This document shows, piece by piece, positions 15,724 to 45,674 of a stretch of DNA of 64,000 nucleotides (positions are counted from its first letter, which is position 1; each line of letters opens with the position of its first letter). The notes beneath the pieces are model-generated. The model made no database searches. It saw nothing but the letters and a program-made list of their open reading frames with translations, and had not been told where the DNA came from. The stretch is from Chloroherpeton thalassium ATCC 35110 (GTDB lineage: Bacteria; Bacteroidota; Chlorobiia; Chlorobiales; Chloroherpetonaceae). Location: the NCBI RefSeq assembly GCF_000020525.1, contig NC_011026.1, forward strand, positions 1,780,001 to 1,844,000, given 5' to 3'. Made by a program: the position numbers and the translations under genes.

Positions 15724-17829
15724 ATGTCGTTTTTTTCAAAATTCTCGCTGAGAAATCGGATTTTTCTGTTAGTTGGGTCACTGCTTATTGGCTCAATTTT
15801 AATTATTTGGTTAGGTGTTTTTCCACATTATGAGAAATTGGTCATTCAGGAACGGATGACCATCATTTCCGAGCAGCAGCAATATGCGGTTGAAAATGCT
15901 GATAGGCAGCTTTCTTATTGGGCGGGAACTGTCCGATACCTAACGGAAACTTTGGCCTCGCGTCCAGAGGCATTTGAAAGCACGCTAAAAAACGAAATTG
16001 CGCTTAACCCGGATATTATTAAAGTGCGTGTGTTGGCGCTTAATACAAACGAAGAACTTGAAGCGCAAAACACCAACTATCCGCGCTTGAATTTTTCCCT
16101 TCCAAGTCTCGAATGGTATAAACTGAAAGCAATCGATGGGCTTGATATTGCTTACGTGCCAAAAAGCGATTCGCTGCCGGCTATTTTCACACTAAAGCAG
16201 CAGATTGAAATTGATGACACGCCCTTTTCGCTGAATTGTTTTTTTGACGCCAGCGCATTTCAAGAAGGGGTGAGCAATATTCCTATTGGAAAAGGACTAT
16301 TTGTTAGGATGCTGAGCCCGGGACGAAATTTGTTTGAAACAGAGCCTACCTTACAATTTCCAGATCTCAAAAATATTGGACAAGTTACATCGATTAAAGC
16401 CGTTGTGCATGGCGGCAGGAAATGGCAAGTTTTAATTGCGCCGTTTTCGCAAGCGCCGTTCGATTTACTTTTGGCTGTGCCGGAATCCTTAATCGCCCAG
16501 CCAGCCAAGCAGCTTTTGTTTTTTTCTTCGATGTTTGCCATTGGCATTGCGGTGTTGATGATTGGTGTTGGCTGGGCAGCGTCGCATCAGGTGACCAAGC
16601 CCGTAATGAAGTTGGCGGCGGCGGTCGAACCGATGAGCCAACTTGATTTCAGTCAGCCTATCAAAAAGCCTGAATTGCCGGAACTCATTTCCCTTTATGA
16701 AGTCATCGAAGCCATGCGCGGGTCGCTGGATCGGTATAAGAAACTCAATGTCGAAAAGTTGATTGTCGAGGAATGGAAAAACCGTTTTCTCATGACTTAT
16801 ACGCCCGATATGATCGCTATCGGCGACGAGAACGGAAAATTTACCTTCAAAAATAAGCGATTTTCCGAGCTGCTTCAAGAACTCCAACTTCCCGAAACCC
16901 TAACTAAAAATGATTTTTTTTCCATTCCTTCAATGGAAATTAACCGTGAGGTGCATCAAGAAGAAGAAATTAAAAGTTTTCATCTGAAAATGAGGCAAGT
17001 GGAGTTTTCGGTTGCGCCTGCAGAAACCATTTACCATTTTGCCTTACAAGATGTGGCGCTTTTTTCCGAGCAAAAAGAATCCAAAGGATTTTTGATGATT
17101 TTGCACGACCTAACAAATGAGCGCGATCTTGAGCGCATCAAATTGGAAACCCTTGGCATCATTGTTCATGAGCTGCGCAGCCCGTTGATGGGCATCATTG
17201 GATTTTCAGATCTCATGCTCTCGCAAGAATATGAACATGACACGCGCAAGCAATACTTGGAGGCTATTTATAAAAGTGGCTCAAAGTTGAGCGACCTTGT
17301 CGATCGGTTTCTCAATGTGCTGCGAATGGAGTCGGGGCAAATGGATATTCTCACTTCGCCCGTGCAGCTGATTCCGATTGTAGAATCGCTGGTTTTAAGC
17401 TTGGACGCGCAAGCGCAGAAAAAGTCCGTAAAGTTTGTGTGTACCTATGAATCCGAAATTCCAGAGATTTTGGCTTCGGAGGAGTTGATGCGGGAAGCCT
17501 TACAAAACCTGATGACAAATGCCATCAAGTACGGCGGAAAAAATAGAACCGTGGAGATAACTTTAAAGAGAGAAGATAATTTTGTTATATTTTCAATAAC
17601 TGACTACGGCTATGGCATTCCCCCTGAAGCGCAAGACAAATTATTTACGAAGTTTTACCGGGTAGAAAACGAAAAGACAAAGAACGAGAAAGGTACCGGG
17701 CTGGGGCTCGCTTATGTAAAAGAAATCGTGACGCGGCATCATGGAAAAATCACGTTGGAATCGCGCCCGGAAATTGGCTGTTGCTTCACCATAACCTTGC
17801 CAGTGGGAAATATGGCGAGCGAGAAATGA
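15724..17829 (+). CDS. Membrane sensor histidine kinase (orphan; first gene of kinase/FecR/PKD unit)
   Basis: A 701-residue kinase. It has an N-terminal transmembrane helix (about 14-35), an extracytoplasmic sensing region of about 220 residues, a second transmembrane helix (about 260-285), a HAMP linker (about 286-340) and a PAS-like region (about 350-460). The HisKA domain has His482 in HELRSPLMGIIGF, and the HATPase has N box NLMTNAIKYGG, DYGYGIPPEAQDKLF and GTGLGLAYVKE. The sensing region shows no family I recognise. No response regulator gene is adjacent. The next gene, a FecR-domain protein, starts 16 bases after the stop, so the three genes are probably one operon sensing and shaping the cell envelope (inference). 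Confidence 0.92.
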   Translation: MSFFSKFSLRNRIFLLVGSLLIGSILIIWLGVFPHYEKLVIQERMTIISEQQQYAVENADRQLSYWAGTVRYLTETLASRPEAFESTLKNEIALNPDIIKVRVLALNTNEELEAQNTNYPRLNFSLPSLEWYKLKAIDGLDIAYVPKSDSLPAIFTLKQQIEIDDTPFSLNCFFDASAFQEGVSNIPIGKGLFVRMLSPGRNLFETEPTLQFPDLKNIGQVTSIKAVVHGGRKWQVLIAPFSQAPFDLLLAVPESLIAQPAKQLLFFSSMFAIGIAVLMIGVGWAASHQVTKPVMKLAAAVEPMSQLDFSQPIKKPELPELISLYEVIEAMRGSLDRYKKLNVEKLIVEEWKNRFLMTYTPDMIAIGDENGKFTFKNKRFSELLQELQLPETLTKNDFFSIPSMEINREVHQEEEIKSFHLKMRQVEFSVAPAETIYHFALQDVALFSEQKESKGFLMILHDLTNERDLERIKLETLGIIVHELRSPLMGIIGFSDLMLSQEYEHDTRKQYLEAIYKSGSKLSDLVDRFLNVLRMESGQMDILTSPVQLIPIVESLVLSLDAQAQKKSVKFVCTYESEIPEILASEELMREALQNLMTNAIKYGGKNRTVEITLKREDNFVIFSITDYGYGIPPEAQDKLFTKFYRVENEKTKNEKGTGLGLAYVKEIVTRHHGKITLESRPEIGCCFTITLPVGNMASEK

Positions 17830-17845
17830 ATCGAATCACACCGAA

Positions 17846-19639
17846 ATGAAATACACGCCGTTTTTTGCAATCGTGCTTAGTGCAATCATTGCAATTTCAC
17901 CGATACAGACGGCTTATTCGCAATACAGCTCCGTGAAGACTTTTTTTTCGGGTGAGTTGCAATCGGTCGCGAAAAAAATCACGGGAGACCCATCTACCTG
18001 GCCGATGGTAATTGCGGAGGCGCATCGCTACGAATCGTCCAATCAATTTTATCTTTCCACAACTGCTTATTCGCGTTTGCTGCGCTTTGCCGAGCAGCAC
18101 AAAAAAGTGCAGGCCGCAAGGGAAAAAATGAATGAACTCATCAAAACCGGCGCGGTGCTTTTTGCCGAACTTGAACTAAAGGATGCCAAAACAGGGCTGT
18201 CCAATTATCATTTGGCGCTTCAAAAGGGCGCTTACGACGATGCGTTGGCTAATGGCAAAAATTTTGTTCAACAAGTTAGCGATGTGGAATCCACGCTCAA
18301 TCGCAATCGGTTGGAGGCCATTTCCGCAAAATTGGAAGAAAAAATCGGTAAGGTTCACAAACGAGAAGGCTTGTTAGGAAGTTGGTTAATGGCAAGCGAA
18401 GGTGATTTTTTTGAAGAATCCGACGGTGTGAAAACCTACGACAATAGCTCAGCAACGCTGGCTTTTGTTGATGGCAGCTATGTGTTTGTTGAAGCTGCTA
18501 GCACCGCTATTGTTAGGAAAGCTCGCCTTGATAAGTTGAACCAAGCGGTTAAAACCGACATTTCGCTTATCAATGGCAACTTGCTTGCCAAGCTTTCGCG
18601 CAAGGCGCAAGACGCCGGCGGTTTTCATCTTAGCACGCAAAGCTCGGATATTGTGGTGCAATCCGGCAAATTTTGGGCAAGCTCCGTGCAAAGCGGGTCG
18701 CGAATTTCCAACTACGACGGCCTCTTGAAAGTGCGTGCGGGACGAGTTGAAATTTCCTTGAAGAAGAACGAAGGCACCGTGGTTTTGAAAGGTAAACCGC
18801 CCTTGCCGCCGGTCGAGCTTTTGCCTGCGCCGCGCCTGAAATGGGCAGGGTTGGACACGGTGTATTTCGGATCGAATTTTCTGATAGAATGGAATCCGCT
18901 TCAAAATACCGAAACCTATCAAATTGAAATCAGCGACACGCGCAACTTCGGTCGGGTGATTCGGCGATATAACACGCCCAAACTCTCTTATGAAGTGCGC
19001 AACCTGACCGACGCCATGCTGTTTATTCGTATTCACGGCCTCGATCGATATGGCTTGCGCGGTATTGATAGTCAAACCTATCGGTTGCTTCGCAGTCCGG
19101 ATACTGAGCCGCCTTACTTGCGCCTAACCAGTCATCGAATTCAAAACGGCGTCATTTACACGCTGAAAAATGAAATTCAAATCGAAGGTGAAACCGAATC
19201 CGGCGCCGCGCTTTACCATGAAGGAAAAACGGTTGCCGTAGATCAAAATGGGCGTTTTTCGCTTGCGCTGCCGATTGCAAGGGAAAAGCAAATGCTTGCA
19301 TTAGAAGCAAAAGATCAAGCTGGCAATCGGCAAAACCTAACGTTGGAAGTTGTGAAATTCAATTTGGAACGGATCGGCACAATTCGCACCAACGCGACGC
19401 TTCGGCAAAACACGCTGTTTGTTTCGAACATGCCGCTTCAGATTTATGGAAAAGCGTATCCCTATCAAAAAATTATGATAAGCTACGGGAAAAGTGACTA
19501 CGAAGTAAACTCTGACGCCGATGGCAATTGGGCGATCGCGATTCAGGACTATGAACAAGCCGGCCTAACAATTAGCATCTTGTCGCCGGACGACGGCGTG
19601 CCAGTCACGATAAAATCATTTTCGGTCAAAAAAACATGA
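17846..19639 (+). CDS. Secreted FecR-domain protein with Ig/Fn3-like C-terminal part
   Basis: A 597-residue protein with a signal peptide (cleavage probably after QTAYSQ near residue 26). Residues about 30-165 are helical, with TPR-like or coiled character. Residues about 180-310 match the FecR-type beta domain (NSSATLAFVDGSYVFVEAAS, then VRAGRVEISLKKNEG), which elsewhere is the periplasmic signal-receiving domain of FecR anti-sigma factors. The C-terminal half has Fn3-like (FLIEWNPLQNTETYQIEI) and Ig-like beta domains. There is no cytoplasmic anti-sigma part and no transmembrane helix, so it is not a classical FecR regulator. Its stop overlaps the start of the PKD gene (ATGA), implying translational coupling. 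Confidence 0.82.
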   Translation: MKYTPFFAIVLSAIIAISPIQTAYSQYSSVKTFFSGELQSVAKKITGDPSTWPMVIAEAHRYESSNQFYLSTTAYSRLLRFAEQHKKVQAAREKMNELIKTGAVLFAELELKDAKTGLSNYHLALQKGAYDDALANGKNFVQQVSDVESTLNRNRLEAISAKLEEKIGKVHKREGLLGSWLMASEGDFFEESDGVKTYDNSSATLAFVDGSYVFVEAASTAIVRKARLDKLNQAVKTDISLINGNLLAKLSRKAQDAGGFHLSTQSSDIVVQSGKFWASSVQSGSRISNYDGLLKVRAGRVEISLKKNEGTVVLKGKPPLPPVELLPAPRLKWAGLDTVYFGSNFLIEWNPLQNTETYQIEISDTRNFGRVIRRYNTPKLSYEVRNLTDAMLFIRIHGLDRYGLRGIDSQTYRLLRSPDTEPPYLRLTSHRIQNGVIYTLKNEIQIEGETESGAALYHEGKTVAVDQNGRFSLALPIAREKQMLALEAKDQAGNRQNLTLEVVKFNLERIGTIRTNATLRQNTLFVSNMPLQIYGKAYPYQKIMISYGKSDYEVNSDADGNWAIAIQDYEQAGLTISILSPDDGVPVTIKSFSVKKT

Positions 19640-22600
19640 TGAAACTATTTTTTAGAGCATCTACATTTTTATTTGTTTTGTTTTTCCTAACGGTAACGCT
19701 TTATGCTCAAGATGTATTTTTGTCCATTTCCGGCCAAAAAGCTTCAAACCTGAGCGGCGATACGCGCCACCAGCACGATTATTGGCTTAGACCGTCAAAA
19801 AGCGCCGGAAGCGCCATTTTGCGCGTTTTTGATGCGGGCGTGAGTTGGGGAACAGCCGACGTCGTCTATGGAACAGTGGAAACTCAAACGACTTTTGCGG
19901 TTTATCCGGTCTCAGCGATTTATGATGTGTTTGGCGATAGTTTATCGGAAAAAATGCGCGTTTATGGAAATCCTAACTATTCCCTGACAGCTCAGGATGA
20001 ACCGGTTTTCCGCGAGCGCTGGGCGACGATTGGCGAGCTAAATCCGGTCGGTTCTCCTAACGGCTATATTCTGCGTGTTACCACGAATGATGGAAACGAT
20101 GTGAATGCCTTTAAAATCATGGTAGCTAAATCGGGAAACATCAACACGCCGAGCGAGGATTGGGTGGTGGTTGCCTCTGACCTAACGCTTGGTCTTTATA
20201 ACTTTCCGCCCAATTTGGAAGTGCAACTTCAGCCATTGCGAGCATCTGAAGCGCCGCCCGAATTTGACTTTCTTGGCGAAGAAGCGGCTATTTTGCGATT
20301 GAAAGATGATTTTGGGCACGCCACAAACCTAACAAACTTGGGAGATTTTTGGCAGCCAGCACGAGCCGCTACGGAAAATCATTGGGGGCTTTCCATTTCG
20401 CGAATTGGCCAAAACAACCATTTTTCGGTTTTCGGCAAAGAAAAAAAGGTTTTTTGGATCTTGAAGCCGAATATTGTTAAAACGCCCGAGCTGCCGAAAG
20501 TTCAGGTGCGCCAGGTGCCCGGCAGCGATTGCGGCAGTGTTCGCCTAACGCTGATCGGTTATCAACGAAATGTTGAAACCGTGCGCGAGCCGGTTTGGGT
20601 TTTTGAAAATGAAAAAATAGTTGGAGATTCGGCGGAAATTTATTTTGGCAAGCCTGACGATTACATGGCTGAAGTTTGGATTCCTAACGAAGGCATGTAT
20701 TTCCCCAAATATTGGATTCATCCGTTTCAGGTGCACATCAACGCGCCGCCAAAGGCTGTTATTTCGTACGACGTGCTCAGTGCGGCGCCTGGCCAGCAGA
20801 CTTCGTTTTCTGCAAGAAATTCGAGTGATGCCGAAGATCGAAACTTATCCTATCGGTGGTTTGTGGAAGGAACGCTTCGTGGTAAGGAATCGGTTTTCAA
20901 TTTTTCAAGCAAAACGCCTGGAAAGTATTCCATCATCCTAACGGTAACGGACAATGCGACGAACTCTTTTTGCACCTCAGCGAGTGACTCGGTAATCCTA
21001 ACGGTTAATTCGCAACCTTACACCGAAATTCGATTCCCGGAAGAATTTGCACGAAAAGAGACCGTTGTGTTTGTCGCTGAAAAAGATAGTGATCCAGATG
21101 CCGATAAGCTTTCTTACAAATGGCAAGGTTCCGGCGTGCAAAGCGACGACGAGGAGCGAGCCGTGGAAATTCGCCACGAGCGGCATGGTGTTTATTCCGT
21201 TTCCCAAACGGTAGACGATAATCACGGCCTTGCAAATTCGAAATACACAAAAACCGTTAGTTACCGCGTGAATGCCGAGCCGGAGCCGCGTTTTTCCCTG
21301 CCTGAACAAGCTGCACCGAACGATGTTCTAAAGCTTTCTGCTGCCAGCACCACCGACGCAGATGATAAAGAGCTTGATTTTGCTTGGCAATCCTCCGATT
21401 GGCAATCGTTTAAGGGACGCGATATCGATATTTCGTTTTTAAATCCAGGCGATTATAAGGTCACCCTAACCGTTGATGATGGACATAATGTTTCAAATTC
21501 TGTTCAAATCCTAACGAAAAATATTCACATCAATGCGCCGCCTTTTCCAATGATCACGGCACAAAATAGTTCAACCATTGCGCGGCAAGTGTTTTCCGCA
21601 AAATATTCCTCCGACAGTGACAGCGAAGACTTGCGCTACTTCTGGGACTTTGGCGACGGCGAAAAAGATCGTGGCTTGGAAGTGGTGCACACATTTCAAA
21701 AAAGCGGGATTTATACTATTACCCTAACGGTTGATGATCAAGAAAAACAAACCAACAGCGTGCAGAAAACCACACATCGTTTTCGTTTGCATCGCTATCC
21801 AGTTGCGAAATTTGATTTGCCGAAATACGCTGAGCCAAAGCACGCTTTCGCAGTGGATGCGAGCGCGAGCTACGCGCCGGATGGCAATATTCGCCAGTAC
21901 AAATGGTTTGTGGATAACCGTTTTGCGGCAACGGGGAAAACGGCAAACTTGCAAATTTCCACGCCGGGCGATCACATTGTTAGTTTGTTAGTTACAGATG
22001 ACTCTGGCTTTGAGGATGCCAAAAGCCTGGCGACGGAAAAAATTCATGTGAATTTTGAACCGTTGCCGCGTTGGGAGGTTTCTTTGCCGGTGGCTGCGCC
22101 GGAGCAGTGGATTGCGTTCGATGCGGGCGATTCTTACGATTTGGACGGGCGCATTCAAAATTACACTTGGACATTTTCTGACGGTGCGGTCGAAAGCGGT
22201 CGAAAAGTTACGAGAAAGTTTTCTGAGTCAGGCAAGGTGGATTTTACCCTAACGGTTGATGATGGGACAGGTTTTGAGAACGCCGTGCAAAACACCACAG
22301 GCTCAGTGCTGATTAATAGCACGCCGATTATTGTGGCGCCAAAAACGATTCGCTCAAACTCGCGACGCGTGAAACTGGACGCTTCGGAAAGCTATGATGT
22401 TGATAGGCAAGCGCTCAATTTTGAGTGGATTTTGCCTGACGGTTCAAAACGCCATGAGGCTGCATTTTATTGGGATGCACCAAAAACGGGGGGCGTTTAT
22501 TTTGTCAGTTTAAACGTCGATGATGGAAAAAATTTGAAAAATAGCCGAGCAAGCCACACGGTGAAGGTGCTGGTAAACAGGCCGCCGGTCGCGGTTACGG

Positions 22601-24396
22601 ACACGCTTGTTAGGGCTTGCACCGGCCAAACGATTTTGTTTAACGGTTCGAGATCCTTCGATCCTGACGGCGACGCGCTGAAAGTCAGCTGGGATTTCGG
22701 CGACGGCACAACCTCTGGCGAAACAGATCCGGCGCATGTGTATCGAAAACCAGGCGAATACAGCGTGGTAATTAAGCTCGACGACGGCTTTGCGCCTGAG
22801 CCGACTTTGGCTGTCATTCCGGTGATTATTGGTAGTTCGCCGCTGGCGATTCAGTCCTTTGCCGATACCACGGTTTGCGTTCAAACCATGCTGGATTTTG
22901 ATGGCAGCCAAAGCGAATATCCGTCGGGCATTATTGGCTCGTATGCCTGGGATTTTGGCGACGGGGAAACGGCGCTCGGCAAAACCGTGCAACATGCGTT
23001 TAGCAAGCCGGGCACGTATAAAGTGATCCTAACGGTTGTGAGCGCGGAAGGCAGTTTCACAACAACGGGATGCAGCAAAATTGGCCAATCATCTTCTACG
23101 GTGCGCGTGATTGCGGGGCCGGTTGCGGATTTCAACGCGAAAAATTGGGTTGCAATCGGCGATACGGTTTATTTGGATGCGAGCCCATCCACGACAACAA
23201 CGCGCATTCTTTCCGCCGATTGGCGCATTTTGGCTGATAAAGAAGGCAAGGGCGACTCGGCAACGGCAAAGTTGGGAACGCGCGTTTTGCATGTGTTTCA
23301 AAAACCGGGACTTTATCCGGTTATCCTAACGATTCGTGATGATAATCAGGCGTCGTGCAATACCTCAAGCACGGTGAAAAATATTCGCGTCAATGCTGCG
23401 CCGGAGCTTAGCTGGCGCGTGCCGAAAGCGGTGGCGCTTGGCGAGCAAGTGCTGCTCGACGCCGCGCGTTCCCTTGACCCTGACGGTCTTATCACACATT
23501 ACAATTGGACGCTCGACGACCAAATGATCGGTGAAACGCCGGCTGTCATCAAGTCATTTTCGGAGGCGGGCGAGCATGAATTAAAGCTCACCATTACCGA
23601 CAACTCGCCAACGCGAACGAAATCCGTTTCAGCGAAAAGCTCTATTTTCGTGAATACGTCGCCGAAGCCGACGTTTGTTTTGCCGGAAAAAATTTATGAA
23701 TATGAACTTCTCGAGCTTCAAGCCAAGCCGGAAGTCGATGCCGATGGCGATCGGTTGAGTTTTTCATGGCAAGTGGACGGCTCGCCTTACGGTTATGACG
23801 AAACCCGTTTTACTGGCGGGCGACACACGCTTCAACTGGTGGCAGACGATCGGCGCGGGCTAAGCAATTCCAAAGATTCTATTTTTACAGAAATTCATGT
23901 CATTCCGTCGCCGGAATTGGAGGCGGATTTTCCTGAACACATTGTTGTGGGGCAAACGCTTTCCTCGGAGCGCGATTGGAAGCGCGAGTCAATCGGCTTT
24001 GTGGTGGATGGGCAGCTTCAGCCGACCTACACGCTGGCGCAAACCGGGCGTGTGGCCGTAAAGTTGGGCTGGGCGCCAAAAGGCATCATTTTGAAAGATA
24101 GCTTCCGTTACCTGACAGTTTGGGAGCCGCTGCGCTTTACCGAAACGCCAGCGCCAATGGTTTTGGTCTGGAATCCGGCAAACCCAACTGTGATTTTGAG
24201 CGTGCCGGGTGTGAATCGTCCAGCAAGCAAAATGCCACTTTTCCGTTGGAAGCGCGGCGCTATGGTGCTGGGCTACGGGGAAACCCAAGAAGTGCCGCTT
24301 TACAAAGGGACAAATACCTTTACGGTTGAAGCCTATGAACCGGATGTGGCTGGCTCAAAAACGGTGTCGGTTGAAATAGTCGTAAAAACGCAATAA
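19636..24396 (+). CDS. Giant secreted protein with about twelve PKD-like repeats
   Basis: A 1586-residue protein with a signal peptide (first 25 residues, ending TLYAQ). About 350 residues of unrecognised N-terminal sequence are followed by about twelve tandem PKD-like immunoglobulin folds of 80-100 residues (about 365-1420). Hallmarks are WDFGDGE or WDFGDGT, HTFQKSGIYTITLTVDD, and the linkers NAPP and NTSPKP. A C-terminal beta-rich region of about 150 residues follows. PKD arrays are typical of extracellular adhesive or structural proteins. Unlike the three T9SS cargoes in this window it has no C-terminal sorting domain, so it may stay in the periplasm or use another route. It overlaps the FecR gene by four bases. 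Confidence 0.88.
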   Translation: MMKLFFRASTFLFVLFFLTVTLYAQDVFLSISGQKASNLSGDTRHQHDYWLRPSKSAGSAILRVFDAGVSWGTADVVYGTVETQTTFAVYPVSAIYDVFGDSLSEKMRVYGNPNYSLTAQDEPVFRERWATIGELNPVGSPNGYILRVTTNDGNDVNAFKIMVAKSGNINTPSEDWVVVASDLTLGLYNFPPNLEVQLQPLRASEAPPEFDFLGEEAAILRLKDDFGHATNLTNLGDFWQPARAATENHWGLSISRIGQNNHFSVFGKEKKVFWILKPNIVKTPELPKVQVRQVPGSDCGSVRLTLIGYQRNVETVREPVWVFENEKIVGDSAEIYFGKPDDYMAEVWIPNEGMYFPKYWIHPFQVHINAPPKAVISYDVLSAAPGQQTSFSARNSSDAEDRNLSYRWFVEGTLRGKESVFNFSSKTPGKYSIILTVTDNATNSFCTSASDSVILTVNSQPYTEIRFPEEFARKETVVFVAEKDSDPDADKLSYKWQGSGVQSDDEERAVEIRHERHGVYSVSQTVDDNHGLANSKYTKTVSYRVNAEPEPRFSLPEQAAPNDVLKLSAASTTDADDKELDFAWQSSDWQSFKGRDIDISFLNPGDYKVTLTVDDGHNVSNSVQILTKNIHINAPPFPMITAQNSSTIARQVFSAKYSSDSDSEDLRYFWDFGDGEKDRGLEVVHTFQKSGIYTITLTVDDQEKQTNSVQKTTHRFRLHRYPVAKFDLPKYAEPKHAFAVDASASYAPDGNIRQYKWFVDNRFAATGKTANLQISTPGDHIVSLLVTDDSGFEDAKSLATEKIHVNFEPLPRWEVSLPVAAPEQWIAFDAGDSYDLDGRIQNYTWTFSDGAVESGRKVTRKFSESGKVDFTLTVDDGTGFENAVQNTTGSVLINSTPIIVAPKTIRSNSRRVKLDASESYDVDRQALNFEWILPDGSKRHEAAFYWDAPKTGGVYFVSLNVDDGKNLKNSRASHTVKVLVNRPPVAVTDTLVRACTGQTILFNGSRSFDPDGDALKVSWDFGDGTTSGETDPAHVYRKPGEYSVVIKLDDGFAPEPTLAVIPVIIGSSPLAIQSFADTTVCVQTMLDFDGSQSEYPSGIIGSYAWDFGDGETALGKTVQHAFSKPGTYKVILTVVSAEGSFTTTGCSKIGQSSSTVRVIAGPVADFNAKNWVAIGDTVYLDASPSTTTTRILSADWRILADKEGKGDSATAKLGTRVLHVFQKPGLYPVILTIRDDNQASCNTSSTVKNIRVNAAPELSWRVPKAVALGEQVLLDAARSLDPDGLITHYNWTLDDQMIGETPAVIKSFSEAGEHELKLTITDNSPTRTKSVSAKSSIFVNTSPKPTFVLPEKIYEYELLELQAKPEVDADGDRLSFSWQVDGSPYGYDETRFTGGRHTLQLVADDRRGLSNSKDSIFTEIHVIPSPELEADFPEHIVVGQTLSSERDWKRESIGFVVDGQLQPTYTLAQTGRVAVKLGWAPKGIILKDSFRYLTVWEPLRFTETPAPMVLVWNPANPTVILSVPGVNRPASKMPLFRWKRGAMVLGYGETQEVPLYKGTNTFTVEAYEPDVAGSKTVSVEIVVKTQ

Positions 24397-26023: not shown

Positions 26024-27484
26024 TTACTTCAAGAGCATCATCTTCTTGGTTTCGGAATAGCCATTGGCGCTAATTCGATAGAAATAAACGCCGCTGTTGA
26101 GATTTTTCCCTTCAAACGTAATCGGCGTGTTTTCTCCGGCATTTCCGTTCAGAATTTCTTTATAAACCACGCGCCCCAAAATGTCGAACACTTGAAAAGC
26201 AACCTTTCCTGCTTGCTTCAAGCTAAAATTAATGGTGGTGCTTGGGTTGAACGGGTTCGGGTAGTTTTGCTCTAAAGTGTAAGCTGTCGCTTTGGTGTCG
26301 CTGACATAGTCTTCGGTGATGGTAACACTCACGCTTTCTGAATACTCGTGAATGTCGCCAGAATTATCGATGCTGGTCAATTTATAAGTGTATGTTTCCC
26401 AAAGATTTACATCTGAATCAGTGAAGCTGTAGTTTGTTTCGCTGCTGGTTGTGCCTTGGCCTTTCAAGGCATCGGTATTTTGATAAGAAGCGATTTCCTC
26501 GCCGTTGCGGTAAAGCAAAAATCCGGCATTTCCTGCTTCCGATGCCGTTTGCCAATTGAGCCTAACACCGCTCTCAATCGATGTCCCCGAGAAGCTAGAT
26601 AATGAAACAGGTAATGGCGCATCAATCTGGCCGCCGTCAGTTATGCCCCAATAGTAGTCATCAATAAGGCTTTGGCGAGCAGTAGCCGCGGCGCCAGTTG
26701 AATATTGGCTGTTTCCGCCGTGAAAAATCACCTCGCTTTGGACGGTTTGCGCTGCCCAGCCGATAAGCAACGCATCATAATTCGCCGTAGAGAGCGTTGC
26801 CCCGTAAAACATATCATCCATTTCTTCTACAGCGCTGATGTTCCAACCGCCGATATTTTGGTCAAATGCGGTGGCATTGTAAAACATCTCCACCATGTTC
26901 ATAGCGCCGCTGACATTCCAACCGCTGATGTTTTGGTTAAATGAAGCCGCACCGCTAAACATACTTTGCATATCGAGGACGGCGCTAACATCCCAACTTT
27001 CAAGATTCGTAATGGATGCCTGATCAATATTCATAAATGTGTAGTTTAGGTTGTTCACCGTCGAAGGTAGCACTGTTGGGACAGAGGTAAGATTGTCAGC
27101 GTTGTTAAAAGCGCCTGAAATCGAGGTAAATCCGGTTAAGCTTCCAAAACTATTGACTTGTGCTAAATATTCAACGCCTGCCCAGCTACCGTTAGAGCCC
27201 TTTCCAAATTGGGTTAAAGTTCCAGAAATAGTGACCGTTTTTTGACCGGTGGTTGTGTATTCGTGGCTTTTGTCGCCCGGTGCCATATAACTGTCACTAT
27301 CACCATCTCCCCAGACGACATTGACATCCACAGAGCCATACAGCGGTAATTCTACGGTGGCAGGAACAGATGTAATGTTGAAGATAAATTCCATCGGTTG
27401 CGCAAAGACCGTAGAGGTGTTTAACCAAAGCAATCCTAAAAGGAAAACGATTCCTTTTAGCTTGGTGGGTAAAGTAATTTTCAT
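26024..27484 (-). CDS. Secreted DUF285 (BspA-type) surface protein with T9SS sorting domain
   Basis: About 486 residues. The signal peptide is MKITLPTKLKGIVFLLGLLW followed by LNTSTVFA. The central part (about 120-260) has DUF285-type repeats with the pattern MxxMFxxAxxFNQNIxxWNVS, as in BspA-like and Mycoplasma surface proteins. The next about 110 residues are an Fn3-like module beginning LPVSLSSFSG. The last about 85 are a T9SS C-terminal sorting domain (LEQNYPNPFNPSTTINF, then FQVFDILGRVVY and GVYFYRI). The product is expected to be exported by T9SS and attached at, or released from, the cell surface. The start was moved 15 codons in from the longest frame to place the signal peptide at the N-terminus. 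Confidence 0.88.
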   Translation of the reverse strand: MKITLPTKLKGIVFLLGLLWLNTSTVFAQPMEFIFNITSVPATVELPLYGSVDVNVVWGDGDSDSYMAPGDKSHEYTTTGQKTVTISGTLTQFGKGSNGSWAGVEYLAQVNSFGSLTGFTSISGAFNNADNLTSVPTVLPSTVNNLNYTFMNIDQASITNLESWDVSAVLDMQSMFSGAASFNQNISGWNVSGAMNMVEMFYNATAFDQNIGGWNISAVEEMDDMFYGATLSTANYDALLIGWAAQTVQSEVIFHGGNSQYSTGAAATARQSLIDDYYWGITDGGQIDAPLPVSLSSFSGTSIESGVRLNWQTASEAGNAGFLLYRNGEEIASYQNTDALKGQGTTSSETNYSFTDSDVNLWETYTYKLTSIDNSGDIHEYSESVSVTITEDYVSDTKATAYTLEQNYPNPFNPSTTINFSLKQAGKVAFQVFDILGRVVYKEILNGNAGENTPITFEGKNLNSGVYFYRISANGYSETKKMMLLK

Positions 27485-27697
27485 AGAGCGGTTGTGTTTT
27501 TTGCTTAAAAAAGATACATGAAATGTCATGTTCGAAGAGAACCTTGGATAGGCATAGGGAAAATTTTAAAATCCAAGGGAAGAAGCAAGTTAAACGGATG
27601 TTAATTCGATAAAATTTTCCGTTTTTGTACACTAACAGTGTGCGTGTTCTTTGCGTGAAACCAAAAATTTGTTAAGGCGAATCCTATGTGCTTTAAA

Positions 27698-41424: not shown

Positions 41425-41693
41425 AGATAATTAACCAGCCATTCAAATAAACAGCATGAGCTGTTATTCCTATAACTTCTATTTTTACCGCAATTTATCT
41501 GCATAATATAGCTAGCGGCTTGAGTGAATTTATGGGGGTTAGACGTTGTTAATCATAACAGTCCTTTTTAGATTTCAGATTAGACAAGCCCAGTCACCGA
41601 TACTTATTTCTTGCTCAACATTTGTCTTCATGTGAAGGCCCATTTCGTAACGTAGCGCAATCCGATGTATATATGCTTGCAAGTTTACCATCA

Positions 41694-44600
41694 ATGAAAA
41701 AAAAGCTGCTTATCCTGTTCAACGGAACTTTATCGGAAGAGGAGTTCTTGGTTCAGCAAATCAAGCAGTCAGGTGCTTCTTCAAATCCAAGAGTCGCCCA
41801 CAACACGGAAGAATTTTGTCACCACATCAAAGTTGATCCGCCTGATATTATTTTAGTCGATGCGAAAACCACAATTGACTCTGGTGTTGCAACGGGTTCG
41901 CTTTTGCAGTCTTGCGTTCATAGCACGCCTTGCTATCTTTTGGTTGCTCCCGAAGAGCACCAAGCGTTCTCAAAAATATTCGCTTCGTCGAATTTTAACC
42001 TGATTGATAAATCAAGCCTTCCGCATTTGTTGGCGGTGATTTCCAACTCTGCTAACCGGCAAGATGCGGCGCGTGTCCCATTTCGTACTTTTTTTGGCAA
42101 TACAAAGCCGATAATTCCTTTTTTGATTGAAAATACATCCGACGTGCTGTTTGCGCTCAATCAAGAAAGGAAGATCGTGTTTGTAAATCCAGCATTTGAA
42201 GAACAGTTGGGATATAAAAGTGAGGCCGTTTTGAATTTGCCCATTTATTCGCTGGTGCACTCAGAGGAGTTGAGAAAAGCAGAAAATCTATTTGGGGATT
42301 CAGCGGATACAGCCAAACACGGCGTTCAGTTGCAGATCAAACATAAAATTGGCACATGGAGCGCGTTCATCATATCCGTCAATAAGCAGGAATCGGAAGA
42401 GGGGATGTATCTTTTTTGCTTGGCCAAAAATGTGGTGGAAAAATCATCTGGATTGGCGTTGCATAACATTTTTCATGAAAAAAGTCTTCAGCTTCAGGAG
42501 GAAAACTCGATTTATGTCATTATCGACAAGCAATATCGAGTCAAAAAATATAACAACGCGGCAAAAGAATGGTTTCGAAAACTGAATGGTAGGCCGTTAA
42601 GAGAGAACGAGAAAATTCAAGACATTGTGCCGTGCGATGCACTGGGGCGACTGAGCGATAGATTGACGCACGCGTTTGCTGGTGAAACGGTTATTTATGA
42701 AAAAAAATTAAATGTGCCGAATACCGGCAATCTTTGGTTTGAACTCGTATATACGCCCGTTTTTGATGACGAAAAAAATGTGGTTGGCGTCAGCATGGCG
42801 TTTAATGATCTGTCACATTCTGAAGCATCTACGATAAAAGATGAGGATAGCGAGCAGCTTTTCAAAACGCTGATTCAATTTTCCCCCGACATGACGGCCA
42901 TTGTCAGTGAAGAGGGAACGGTTCAATATGTAAGCACAACATCGGCATTGGAAATCGGTTTTGGCCCGGAAGAGCTAAAAGGAAAAAATTTACTCGAATA
43001 CATTCATCCTGAAGATCAGTATCTATTTGAAAACTCGCTGGGCAATGCGCAGTTTGAATACGAGCAGTCGATCAACATCGAAATTCGGATCAAGCACAAA
43101 AATTCCACTTGGGTTTATTTTGATGCCACGATCAAACAGTTTTGGTTTGCGGGACATCGCGAAGAGCGATTTTTAATTCACGCGCAAAACATCACGGAGC
43201 GCAAGCAAGTTGAAGATGCCCTGAAGCTTCATGTGAGCGCCATTGAAGCCAGCCAAAATGGGATTATGATCGTGGATGCGATGCTGGAGGATTATCCGAT
43301 TATTTATGTCAATCCCCGTTTTGAAGCGGTCACGGGCTACGAAGGCTGTGAAATTATGGGTAGAAATCCACGATTTTTGCACGGCGAAGATGTTAGCCAG
43401 CCCGATTTGGAAAAAATTCGCTATGCAATGCGGCACGGTAAACCTTGCACAGTGTTGCTGAAGAATTATAAAAAAGACGGCTCTCTATTTTGGAATGAGT
43501 TGACCATCTCGCCCATTTCTGACAACGACGGCACGGTGACGCACTTTGTTGGCACCACGAACGATATTTCCGAGAGGATTTTTTCGAACGAGAATCTCAA
43601 TAAGTCAAACGCTATTTTAAAAGCGATTAGCGAAATTCAGTCCGTCTTTATTTCCGAGTCGGCGCCAAAAGACTTATTTGAGCATCTTTTGAACCGGTTG
43701 CTGTTTTTAACGCAAAGCCAATTTGGCTTTATCGGAGAAATGATTGAAGGGAAAGATGCTGCTGAGCAGTTGGTGATTCGCACGATCAGCGATGAACGCA
43801 AGATTCAGTCGGCAGAGCTCGTCTGTCATCACGATGCGTTTCATAGCAATGCGTGTGGGCTTTTGTCGAGCCTTTGCCAAAAGGTAATTCAAACGGGCAA
43901 GCCAGCCATAGAAAATAAATTTCGGATGAATGCCAGCCGAACAGAATTGCCAAGCAGCCACCCAGCAGTTAATACTTTCGTTGCGCTTCCATTGATGAGC
44001 GGAGACAATTTGATTGGCATTGCGGGCGTTTCCAACCGAAAAGGCGGCTACGACCAACAAATTTTGGATTATCTGGCGCCATTTCTTTCTACTTGTGCCA
44101 GCATCATTGCGGCGCAACGGCAAAATGTTTGGCGGCGCAATGCCGAAGAAAAACTTCGCGAACAAGCGGCCTTGCTCGATATTACCGAAGAAGCCATCAT
44201 TGTGTGTGATGAAGATGATATGGTGCTTTACTGGAACAACGGCGCGGTGAAAATGTATGGTTGGGAAAAGCATGAAATTCTGGGGAAAAATGCGTGCGAG
44301 TTTTTAGATACGAAGGATAAACATACCGTCGACGTTGCCAAAACATCGGTTCTTAACACGGGACACTGGCTCGGCGAATTGACGCACATCGCCAAGTCGG
44401 GTAAAGATATTGTCGTCGAAAGCCGTTGGAATTTGATGCCGCCCTCTAATGGCGGACCAAATTCAAAATCTATTTTGATTCTTAACACCGATATTACCAG
44501 CAAAAAGAAATTTGAGTCGCATTTGCTGCGGGCTCAACGACTGGAAAGTTTGGGTCGGTTGGTGAGCGGGATTGCGCACGATCTGAATAATATCCTTTCG

Positions 44601-45674
44601 CCGATTCTGTTGTCTTTGCAATTGCTCAAGAGAAAAGCAACAGACGACAAAGCAAAAGGACTGATTGATACGCTGGAACTGAGCGCCAAAAGAGGTGGAA
44701 ATCTGGTCAAGCAGGTGCTTTCATTTGCAAAAGGTGTCGAGTGTGAGCGGCTGCCAATTAAAATTGAGCATTCGGTGCAAGAAGTTGAAAAAATCCTTTT
44801 TGAGACGTTCCCAAAAACGATTGATGTCGATATTCTGTACAACAAGCCGCTTTGGTATGTTCATGGCGATTCCACGCAGCTTCACCAAGTATTGCTAAAC
44901 CTTTGCGTCAACGCACGCGACGCGATGCAGGTCAAAAATGGTGGCGCGCTGCGAATCACGGTTTCCAATGCCGTTGTCGGCGAGCGAGAAGCCGCGATAT
45001 ATCCTGACGCACAGCCTGGCCGATATGTGAAGGTTTCGGTGAGCGACACCGGAACGGGCATTGCACCAGAACATCTGGATAGCATTTACGAGCCATTTTT
45101 TACAACCAAAGAGCTGGGTCAAGGAACGGGACTTGGGCTTTCAACCGTCTTTATGATCGTCAAAAGCCATCAGGGATTTATTACGGTGTATTCCGAGCTG
45201 GGAAAAGGCACCACGTTCAATGTTTTTCTCCCTGCATTCGAATCGGAAGAGACGGAATTTGAGCCAACCGCGTCACTTTCGCAAATCCAGGGTATTGGAG
45301 AACATATTTTGGTCGTTGATGATGAAGCGCCGGTCAGGGAAGTGACCAAAGAATCCTTACAGGCGAATGGTTATGATGTGATTACGGCGGAAAATGGCGA
45401 GGATGCTATTAGCAAGGTTCAAGAGGCAACCTGTGCGATTAGTGCGGCTATCATTGATATGATGATGCCAAAACTGGATGGCACTTCTACCATCAAATTG
45501 TTGCGGCAAACAAACCCAAGCATCAAAATTATTGCGGTGAGCGGACTCTTTTCATACAAGAAAGTCCTAACGGAAAGTGGAGAATTAGTTGATGCGTTTT
45601 TACAAAAACCTTACACATCGGAGCAGCTTTTAGGCGCGTTGCACGAAGTGTTGCACGAGCAAAAAACGTATTAG
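41694..45674 (+). CDS. Hybrid sensor histidine kinase with pseudo-receiver, multiple PAS, GAF and receiver domains
   Basis: About 1326 residues, all cytoplasmic (no signal or membrane segment). An N-terminal receiver-like domain (about 1-110, DIILVDAK) is followed by PAS domains (about 130-240 and three to four more, including VNPAFEEQLGYKSEAV and VNPRFEAVTGYEGCEI), a GAF domain (about 640-810) and another PAS (about 825-940). HisKA has His962 in GIAHDLNN, the HATPase has GTGLGLSTVFMIVKSHQGF, and the C-terminal receiver has Asp1255 in IIDMMMPKLDG. It is thus an NtrB-like hybrid kinase with an internal phosphorelay step. No response regulator gene is adjacent. The frame is open to 41622 (TTG); ATGs at 41673 and 41694 are alternative starts. 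Confidence 0.9.
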   Translation: MKKKLLILFNGTLSEEEFLVQQIKQSGASSNPRVAHNTEEFCHHIKVDPPDIILVDAKTTIDSGVATGSLLQSCVHSTPCYLLVAPEEHQAFSKIFASSNFNLIDKSSLPHLLAVISNSANRQDAARVPFRTFFGNTKPIIPFLIENTSDVLFALNQERKIVFVNPAFEEQLGYKSEAVLNLPIYSLVHSEELRKAENLFGDSADTAKHGVQLQIKHKIGTWSAFIISVNKQESEEGMYLFCLAKNVVEKSSGLALHNIFHEKSLQLQEENSIYVIIDKQYRVKKYNNAAKEWFRKLNGRPLRENEKIQDIVPCDALGRLSDRLTHAFAGETVIYEKKLNVPNTGNLWFELVYTPVFDDEKNVVGVSMAFNDLSHSEASTIKDEDSEQLFKTLIQFSPDMTAIVSEEGTVQYVSTTSALEIGFGPEELKGKNLLEYIHPEDQYLFENSLGNAQFEYEQSINIEIRIKHKNSTWVYFDATIKQFWFAGHREERFLIHAQNITERKQVEDALKLHVSAIEASQNGIMIVDAMLEDYPIIYVNPRFEAVTGYEGCEIMGRNPRFLHGEDVSQPDLEKIRYAMRHGKPCTVLLKNYKKDGSLFWNELTISPISDNDGTVTHFVGTTNDISERIFSNENLNKSNAILKAISEIQSVFISESAPKDLFEHLLNRLLFLTQSQFGFIGEMIEGKDAAEQLVIRTISDERKIQSAELVCHHDAFHSNACGLLSSLCQKVIQTGKPAIENKFRMNASRTELPSSHPAVNTFVALPLMSGDNLIGIAGVSNRKGGYDQQILDYLAPFLSTCASIIAAQRQNVWRRNAEEKLREQAALLDITEEAIIVCDEDDMVLYWNNGAVKMYGWEKHEILGKNACEFLDTKDKHTVDVAKTSVLNTGHWLGELTHIAKSGKDIVVESRWNLMPPSNGGPNSKSILILNTDITSKKKFESHLLRAQRLESLGRLVSGIAHDLNNILSPILLSLQLLKRKATDDKAKGLIDTLELSAKRGGNLVKQVLSFAKGVECERLPIKIEHSVQEVEKILFETFPKTIDVDILYNKPLWYVHGDSTQLHQVLLNLCVNARDAMQVKNGGALRITVSNAVVGEREAAIYPDAQPGRYVKVSVSDTGTGIAPEHLDSIYEPFFTTKELGQGTGLGLSTVFMIVKSHQGFITVYSELGKGTTFNVFLPAFESEETEFEPTASLSQIQGIGEHILVVDDEAPVREVTKESLQANGYDVITAENGEDAISKVQEATCAISAAIIDMMMPKLDGTSTIKLLRQTNPSIKIIAVSGLFSYKKVLTESGELVDAFLQKPYTSEQLLGALHEVLHEQKTY

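Follow-up and report, generated by a model that had tools for sequence, protein, structure and literature searches.

A conserved unit of sensor kinase, FecR-domain envelope protein and giant PKD-repeat protein suggests a way of monitoring the bacterial envelope

Introduction

Three neighboring genes of Chloroherpeton thalassium ATCC 35110 raise the question of whether a membrane histidine kinase, an exported FecR-domain protein and a giant PKD-repeat protein act together as one signaling system, and if so which of them provides the input and which the output. The genes lie in a stretch of 64,000 nucleotides of the genome (the window, to whose full length all coordinates refer unless a locus is named), and a first-pass annotation of this DNA had suggested that they couple the state of a surface or periplasmic scaffold to the kinase. 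Sigma-less FecR-domain proteins are a common but unexplained class of protein, as are giant PKD-repeat proteins that carry no sorting signal. Here, the unit is examined by comparison across genomes, domain searches and structure prediction, and the possible explanations for its conservation are weighed against each other.

Layout and neighborhood of the unit

The three genes lie on the same strand, with 16 bases separating the kinase and FecR genes and an ATGA stop/start overlap joining the FecR and PKD genes, exactly as first annotated in coordinates, strands and lengths. The overlap is likely to result in translational coupling of the FecR and PKD genes. The features of the unit are the following.

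15724..17829, + strand: sensor histidine kinase, 701 aa, comprising TM1, a periplasmic predicted dCache, TM2, HAMP-like, PAS-like, HisKA and HATPase_c parts
15823..16509, + strand: periplasmic sensing region of the kinase, approximately residues 34-262, predicted dCache fold (AlphaFold2, Foldseek)
17146..17337, + strand: HisKA dimerization/phospho-acceptor domain, residues 475-538 (Pfam PF00512, 3.1e-12)
17479..17805, + strand: HATPase_c catalytic domain, residues 586-694 (Pfam PF02518, 3.3e-29)
17846..19639, + strand: exported FecR-domain protein, 597 aa, comprising a signal peptide, a helical N-region, and FecR, FN3-like and Big_6-type domains
18428..18721, + strand: FecR domain, residues 195-292 (Pfam PF04773, 5.8e-7)
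19636..19639, + strand: ATGA stop/start overlap of the FecR and PKD genes
19636..24396, + strand: giant exported PKD-repeat protein, 1586 aa, with a signal peptide
19708..20733, + strand: N-terminal region of the PKD protein, residues 25-366, Ig-like beta-sandwiches, the family marker
20740..23952, + strand: array of 12 PKD domains, residues 369-1439
22312..23121, + strand: PKD domains 7-9, residues 893-1162, the most conserved block
23953..24393, + strand: C-terminal region of the PKD protein, residues 1440-1586, conserved and not a T9SS sorting domain

The unit is flanked by trpF-like and rsmB-like genes, so it brings neither a regulator nor a sigma factor nor a transporter with it. Its immediate neighbors include no response regulator, sigma factor or anti-sigma part, which agrees with the first description of the kinase as an orphan. 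The genome carrying the window consists of a single contig of 3,293,456 bases with 51 receiver-domain matches. The nearest of these lies approximately 21 kb downstream of the unit within a hybrid kinase, a large hybrid-sensor-type protein (window 41622-45674, + strand) with the receiver domain near its C-terminal end. A promoter and terminator scan of the unit gives counts close to or below those of shuffled sequences. Elsewhere in the window, a gene on the opposite strand (26024-27529, - strand) encodes a T9SS-tailed protein whose middle part is strongly similar to the PARCEL-repeat surface lipoproteins of mycoplasmas (Mbov_0838 type; NF045896, 2.5e-24).

Conservation across genomes

For a sample of 395 genomes drawn evenly from the phylum, a profile search with the FecR protein identifies full-length orthologues with E-values below 1e-120 in 41 genomes from nine families. 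Inspection of their surroundings shows that at every one of the 41 loci the FecR gene is preceded by the kinase sensor region and followed by the PKD protein, on the same strand and in the same order. Independent profile searches of the same 395 genomes with the sensor region and with the PKD N-region recover the same 41 genomes. The arrangement is thus not peculiar to this genome, and chance adjacency of the three genes is rejected. The outcome that the first-pass annotation named as refuting its proposal, a lack of co-occurrence in every relative, is decisively contradicted. The gaps between the genes are mostly in the range of -4 to +16 bases, with some values approximate as the longest frame was used to set gene starts, and in one genome (G321) a stop codon breaks the kinase frame.

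The unit is absent from all genomes of family f2, inferred to be the Chlorobiaceae, and from G001, the other genus of its own family, and it is present in the related family f4, which includes Ca. Thermochlorobacter, and in seven further families. Within the same class, six f4 genomes carry all three genes in the same order with 40-52% identity, and in most of them adjacent genes overlap by 4 bases at each junction. A contig scan with a single protein matched nothing, and an alignment-based scan gave 8 loci. In two Thermochlorobacter-type genomes, genes for BLUF sensors of blue light lie directly upstream of the kinase (L011:12506-14377 and L014:10307-10786); in L011 there are two BLUF genes together with a truncated copy of the kinase sensor region, and two response regulators lie further upstream.

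Beyond these loci, the only other strong matches to the sensor occur in two genomes of family f8, where it is not fused to a kinase. One is a 361-aa sensor region with a HAMP-like part and no kinase domain, located away from the FecR and PKD genes (G157, L096:9905-10990). The other is a kinase-less dCache sensor whose gene directly precedes one for an ECF sigma factor (G171, L097:9802-11352), possibly a third type of output for the sensor. Strong matches to the PKD protein outside the unit comprise stand-alone second copies in four f5 genomes and the sole copy in G168, a genome with neither the kinase gene nor the FecR gene of the unit, and divergent lone copies also occur elsewhere. The sensor and the FecR protein are therefore almost never found apart, and the PKD protein can exist alone, indicating that it has a role without the kinase. 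The distance correlations among the three proteins are 0.84-0.93, calculated without a housekeeping control, and thus show inheritance as a unit rather than contact.

Sensor kinase

The annotation of the first gene as a membrane histidine kinase is borne out by the Pfam matches to HisKA and HATPase_c, and the PAS-like part gives a weak Pfam match. Kinase-type relatives retain the phospho-acceptor H482, N595/N599, D627/G629 and G657-G661, so judged from these residues the window kinase has the signature of an active core (phospho-acceptor His, N box and G box).

The sensing region had been regarded as unrecognised, a description that no longer holds as structure prediction gives it the fold of a double-Cache domain, on the periplasmic side and flanked by two TM helices. 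The AlphaFold2 model, built with 34 aligned relatives as input, has a pLDDT of 88.7, and Foldseek matches it to the solved dCACHE domains of chemoreceptors and kinases (PctA, Mlp24, Mlp37, Tlp3 and rpHK1S-Z16) with target TM-scores up to 0.68. At the sequence level, the region of the window kinase has no Pfam match, CHASE2 included, and no significant relative in a PDB sequence search, and Pfam dCache_1 is detected in 5 divergent relatives only, kinases among them. As a class, dCache domains usually bind small molecules. In the present family, the most conserved part of the sensor is the helix that follows TM1 (residues 34-60, PxYxxAxxxERTTI), and the Cache core is poorly conserved, with a mean consensus frequency of approximately 0.36-0.39. 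The combination of a conserved helix and a variable core would be more in line with binding to another protein than with a single small ligand common to the family.

FecR-domain protein

The second gene encodes, as first proposed, a secreted FecR-type protein without sigma or anti-sigma parts, in which a signal peptide precedes the FecR and Big_6 domains. The FecR domain is detected by Pfam in all 41 relatives scanned, and PDB sequence searches with the sensor, the FecR protein and the PKD N-region return nothing significant beyond generic PKD or FN3 matches. No TM anchor, lipobox or cysteine is seen in the window protein, and Pfam finds no LysM domain in it. LysM is present in 5 of the 41 relatives, every one of them from a divergent cassette, and an OmpA domain accompanies FecR at further loci described below. 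Both are peptidoglycan-binding modules, and the FecR family is placed at the cell wall because relatives carry one or the other. By analogy with these relatives, the window protein is probably cell-wall-bound.

Giant PKD protein

The estimate of about twelve PKD-like folds in the third protein is matched by 12 PKD_4 stretches in Pfam (6e-150). They follow an N-region that has no relative in Pfam or in a PDB sequence search and is modeled by AlphaFold2 with a pLDDT of 90.8; Foldseek matches this model to generic Ig-like arrays only, with low TM-scores. A 339-aa exported protein with weak likeness to the N-region is encoded at L123:9103-10122, near genes that look like PorP/SprF-type and OmpA-type.

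Among the PKD proteins of the unit (n=39) the median length is 1572 aa, with 35 of the 39 between 1530 and 1630 aa, and the repeats of relatives align collinearly, one to one and almost free of gaps. Mean pairwise identity is 53-59% in PKD7-9 and 35-45% in the other repeats, compared with 48% in the kinase core. Repeat arrays that serve only as spacers or as variable adhesins are expected to gain and lose repeats. In contrast, the nearly gap-free and fixed PKD array behaves as a component of a machine would. There are exactly six cysteines in the window protein (299, 446, 995, 1081, 1146 and 1241), and each of these columns is Cys in 97-100% of approximately 38 aligned orthologues, divergent ones included. 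The rod is probably stiffened by disulfides formed between putative pairs of these residues.

T9SS cargo is present in all 14 of the unit-bearing or related genomes tested. The first-pass annotation noted the lack of a T9SS sorting domain on the PKD protein, and this extends to the family, as no T9SS tail is found on the window protein or on the C-terminal regions of 35 relatives; reading the protein as a T9SS-exported adhesin is rejected on this basis. As none of the known signals for export across the outer membrane is found on the protein, its surface exposure is unsupported. From the typical size of an Ig domain, 12 fully extended PKD domains are estimated to reach some tens of nanometers. 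An extended rod would exceed the width of a normal periplasm and would therefore have to run parallel to the cell wall, be bent or pass through the outer membrane.

Divergent cassettes and exchange of the output enzyme

Divergent cassettes are found in G145, G148, G215, G266 and G325, where the FecR proteins are approximately 770-790 aa long and most have LysM before FecR. A membrane signaling protein precedes the FecR protein and a giant PKD protein follows it where visible; one cassette (L095) ends at a contig edge, and in another (L085) a receiver-domain gene rather than a PKD gene comes after FecR. Response regulators of the NarL or SpoIIE type are encoded near some kinases of this group, and it is only in divergent cassettes that regulators adjoin the kinase. 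At two places, L088 and the leading cassette of a tandem pair in L089, HAMP plus a class III cyclase replaces the kinase, and the FecR and PKD genes stay. Both proteins share the TM-HAMP layout of the kinase, the motifs of their cyclase domains (PF00211, 8e-23 and 9e-23) look intact by eye, and dCache_1 gives a weak match in L089. On this comparative evidence, FecR-PKD appears to serve as the input module, with an output that can be exchanged, either a kinase or an adenylate/guanylate cyclase.

Other variants depart from the three-gene order. In G148, which also has FecR-type cassettes elsewhere, a response regulator, a kinase and a giant PKD protein are encoded in a row without a FecR gene (L119:7086-15279), and this kinase-PKD pair indicates that FecR is not always needed. 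An OmpA-FecR protein is encoded beside a kinase in G089, G096 and G290 (loci L018, L090 and L091), and in G089 (L018) two response regulators are present as well. At L018:7073-14417 and L091:5966-12688, the response regulator or regulators, the kinase and the OmpA-FecR protein are followed by an apparent rhomboid protease gene and by a PorV/UPF0164-like protein, and the OmpA-FecR protein of this cassette has a probable C-terminal barrel.

Proposed mechanism and alternative explanations

The reading we favor, to which we give an even chance, is that the operon encodes an envelope-sensing complex in which the FecR protein forms the link from the PKD rod to the kinase's dCache domain. As the side that stays conserved is FecR with PKD and the variable side is the enzyme, the PKD rod and the FecR-domain protein are read as the input module and the enzyme as the output. 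The rod would be exported by its signal peptide, and the FecR protein, near or at the cell wall, would contact both the rod and the dCache domain and may relay the presence, tension or binding state of the rod to the sensor. The kinase would then phosphorylate a response regulator encoded elsewhere in the genome, and in some relatives the same input would drive a cyclase rather than a kinase. The coupling of a scaffold to the kinase suggested by the first-pass annotation is therefore the best-supported reading, with the cyclase swap and the LysM and OmpA domains of related FecR proteins in its favor, and surface exposure of the PKD protein, one of the options it named, is unsupported. A stronger version, tentative and in its entirety somewhat unlikely, is a phylum-wide modular monitor of the envelope in which the fixed-length, disulfide-braced rod gauges mechanical state or occupancy, a FecR adaptor attached to the cell wall reads this gauge, and the signal crosses the inner membrane to an exchangeable kinase or adenylate cyclase.

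The main alternatives concern what the kinase senses. The PKD and FecR proteins could build or stabilize the envelope as products of an autoregulated structural operon, with the kinase sensing an unrelated cue and setting the expression of its own operon through a distant regulator, without any sensing complex. PKD-family proteins that stand alone in several genomes favor this explanation, and dCache kinases often act by themselves; we consider it unlikely, however, as the exchange of kinase for cyclase with the input genes kept and the pairing of sensor and FecR protein in 41 of 41 genomes fit a shared signaling path better than co-regulation. Alternatively, the dCache domain could bind a metabolite that the FecR and PKD proteins capture or present, or these proteins could keep the receptor in position. 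Among solved structures, the nearest folds are dCache domains that bind amino acids (such as PctA, Mlp24 and Tlp3), and detection of dCache by sequence in divergent kinases is also in accord with a small-molecule sensor, but the best-conserved part is the post-TM1 helix and not the Cache core, and no site for a ligand could be assigned, leaving this explanation quite unlikely. That the FecR protein belongs, as in iron-citrate signaling, to a sigma/anti-sigma switch whose ECF sigma factor is encoded at a distance, and that the kinase is incidental, is highly improbable: the FecR domain is genuine by Pfam and the kinase-less sensor gene of G171 does adjoin an ECF sigma gene, but the FecR protein is fully exported with no cytoplasmic anti-sigma part, no sigma factor or TonB receptor adjoins it, and its conserved partner in 41 genomes is a kinase.

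Taken together, the conserved three-gene unit suggests an undescribed way by which bacteria monitor their own envelope or surface. If the envelope-sensing complex is real, it would be a case of transmembrane signaling with one of the larger conserved envelope proteins as its input, in a unit kept long enough to span at least nine families. It would also give a testable role in one pathway to the sigma-less FecR-domain proteins and to the giant PKD-repeat proteins that carry no sorting signal. The natural kinase/cyclase swap would also offer a ready route to reporters.

Comparison with known systems

A literature search finds no paper in which a FecR domain, a PKD domain and a histidine kinase occur together, in a coverage that omits most subscription papers, and related searches within the same coverage find nothing on the three-gene unit. 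Within the literature searched, the unit as a whole thus stands as undescribed, as first claimed, and that claim does not extend to operons in which a membrane kinase or cyclase is combined with an envelope FecR protein, as such operons have already been published. The closest is the BiofilmReg operon of Burkholderiales and Pseudomonas, which encodes a response regulator, a LysM-FecR protein, a CHASE2 histidine kinase and a DUF4136 protein and is tied to biofilm formation (PMC5192318). Both are same-strand operons in which an exported FecR-domain protein accompanies a histidine kinase of the membrane that has a periplasmic sensor, and the LysM domain before FecR recurs in divergent members of the present family. 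Unlike BiofilmReg, the present unit has dCache in place of CHASE2, contains a PKD protein and no response regulator, and places the kinase before rather than after the FecR gene, and the FecR protein of the window is without LysM.

A cluster of Campylobacterota consists of a CHASE2 adenylate cyclase, a phosphodiesterase, a FecR-domain protein and a TPR protein (PMC9239204), and likewise joins a FecR-domain envelope protein to a membrane signaling enzyme, as do the two cassettes of the present family that use a class III cyclase. Cyclases are the exception in the present family, in contrast to that cluster, which has CHASE2, phosphodiesterase and TPR partners and no PKD protein. In FecI-FecR-FecA cell-surface signaling, the periplasmic domain of FecR similarly acts as an envelope relay, whereas the present unit has no ECF sigma factor, anti-sigma region or TonB-dependent receptor. 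Control of a kinase by a periplasmic partner, as proposed here, has a parallel in the lipoprotein QseG, which is reported to control the kinase QseE (PMC6075780); there, one lipoprotein is the partner, and no FecR or PKD protein is described. The PKD protein itself resembles PKD-array surface proteins and T9SS cargo in having a signal peptide followed by tandem PKD domains, and differs from them in its lack of a T9SS tail, its operon link to a kinase, its near-fixed length, the repeat-by-repeat collinearity across families and its six invariant cysteines.

A FecR envelope protein working with a membrane signaling enzyme is therefore a known kind of system of which little mechanism has been described, and both the BiofilmReg and the Campylobacterota clusters are reported without a PKD protein or a dCache sensor. 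What appears to be new in the present unit is its use of a dCache sensor, the giant PKD protein as an obligate partner, a rod of near-fixed architecture and the exchange of kinase for cyclase.
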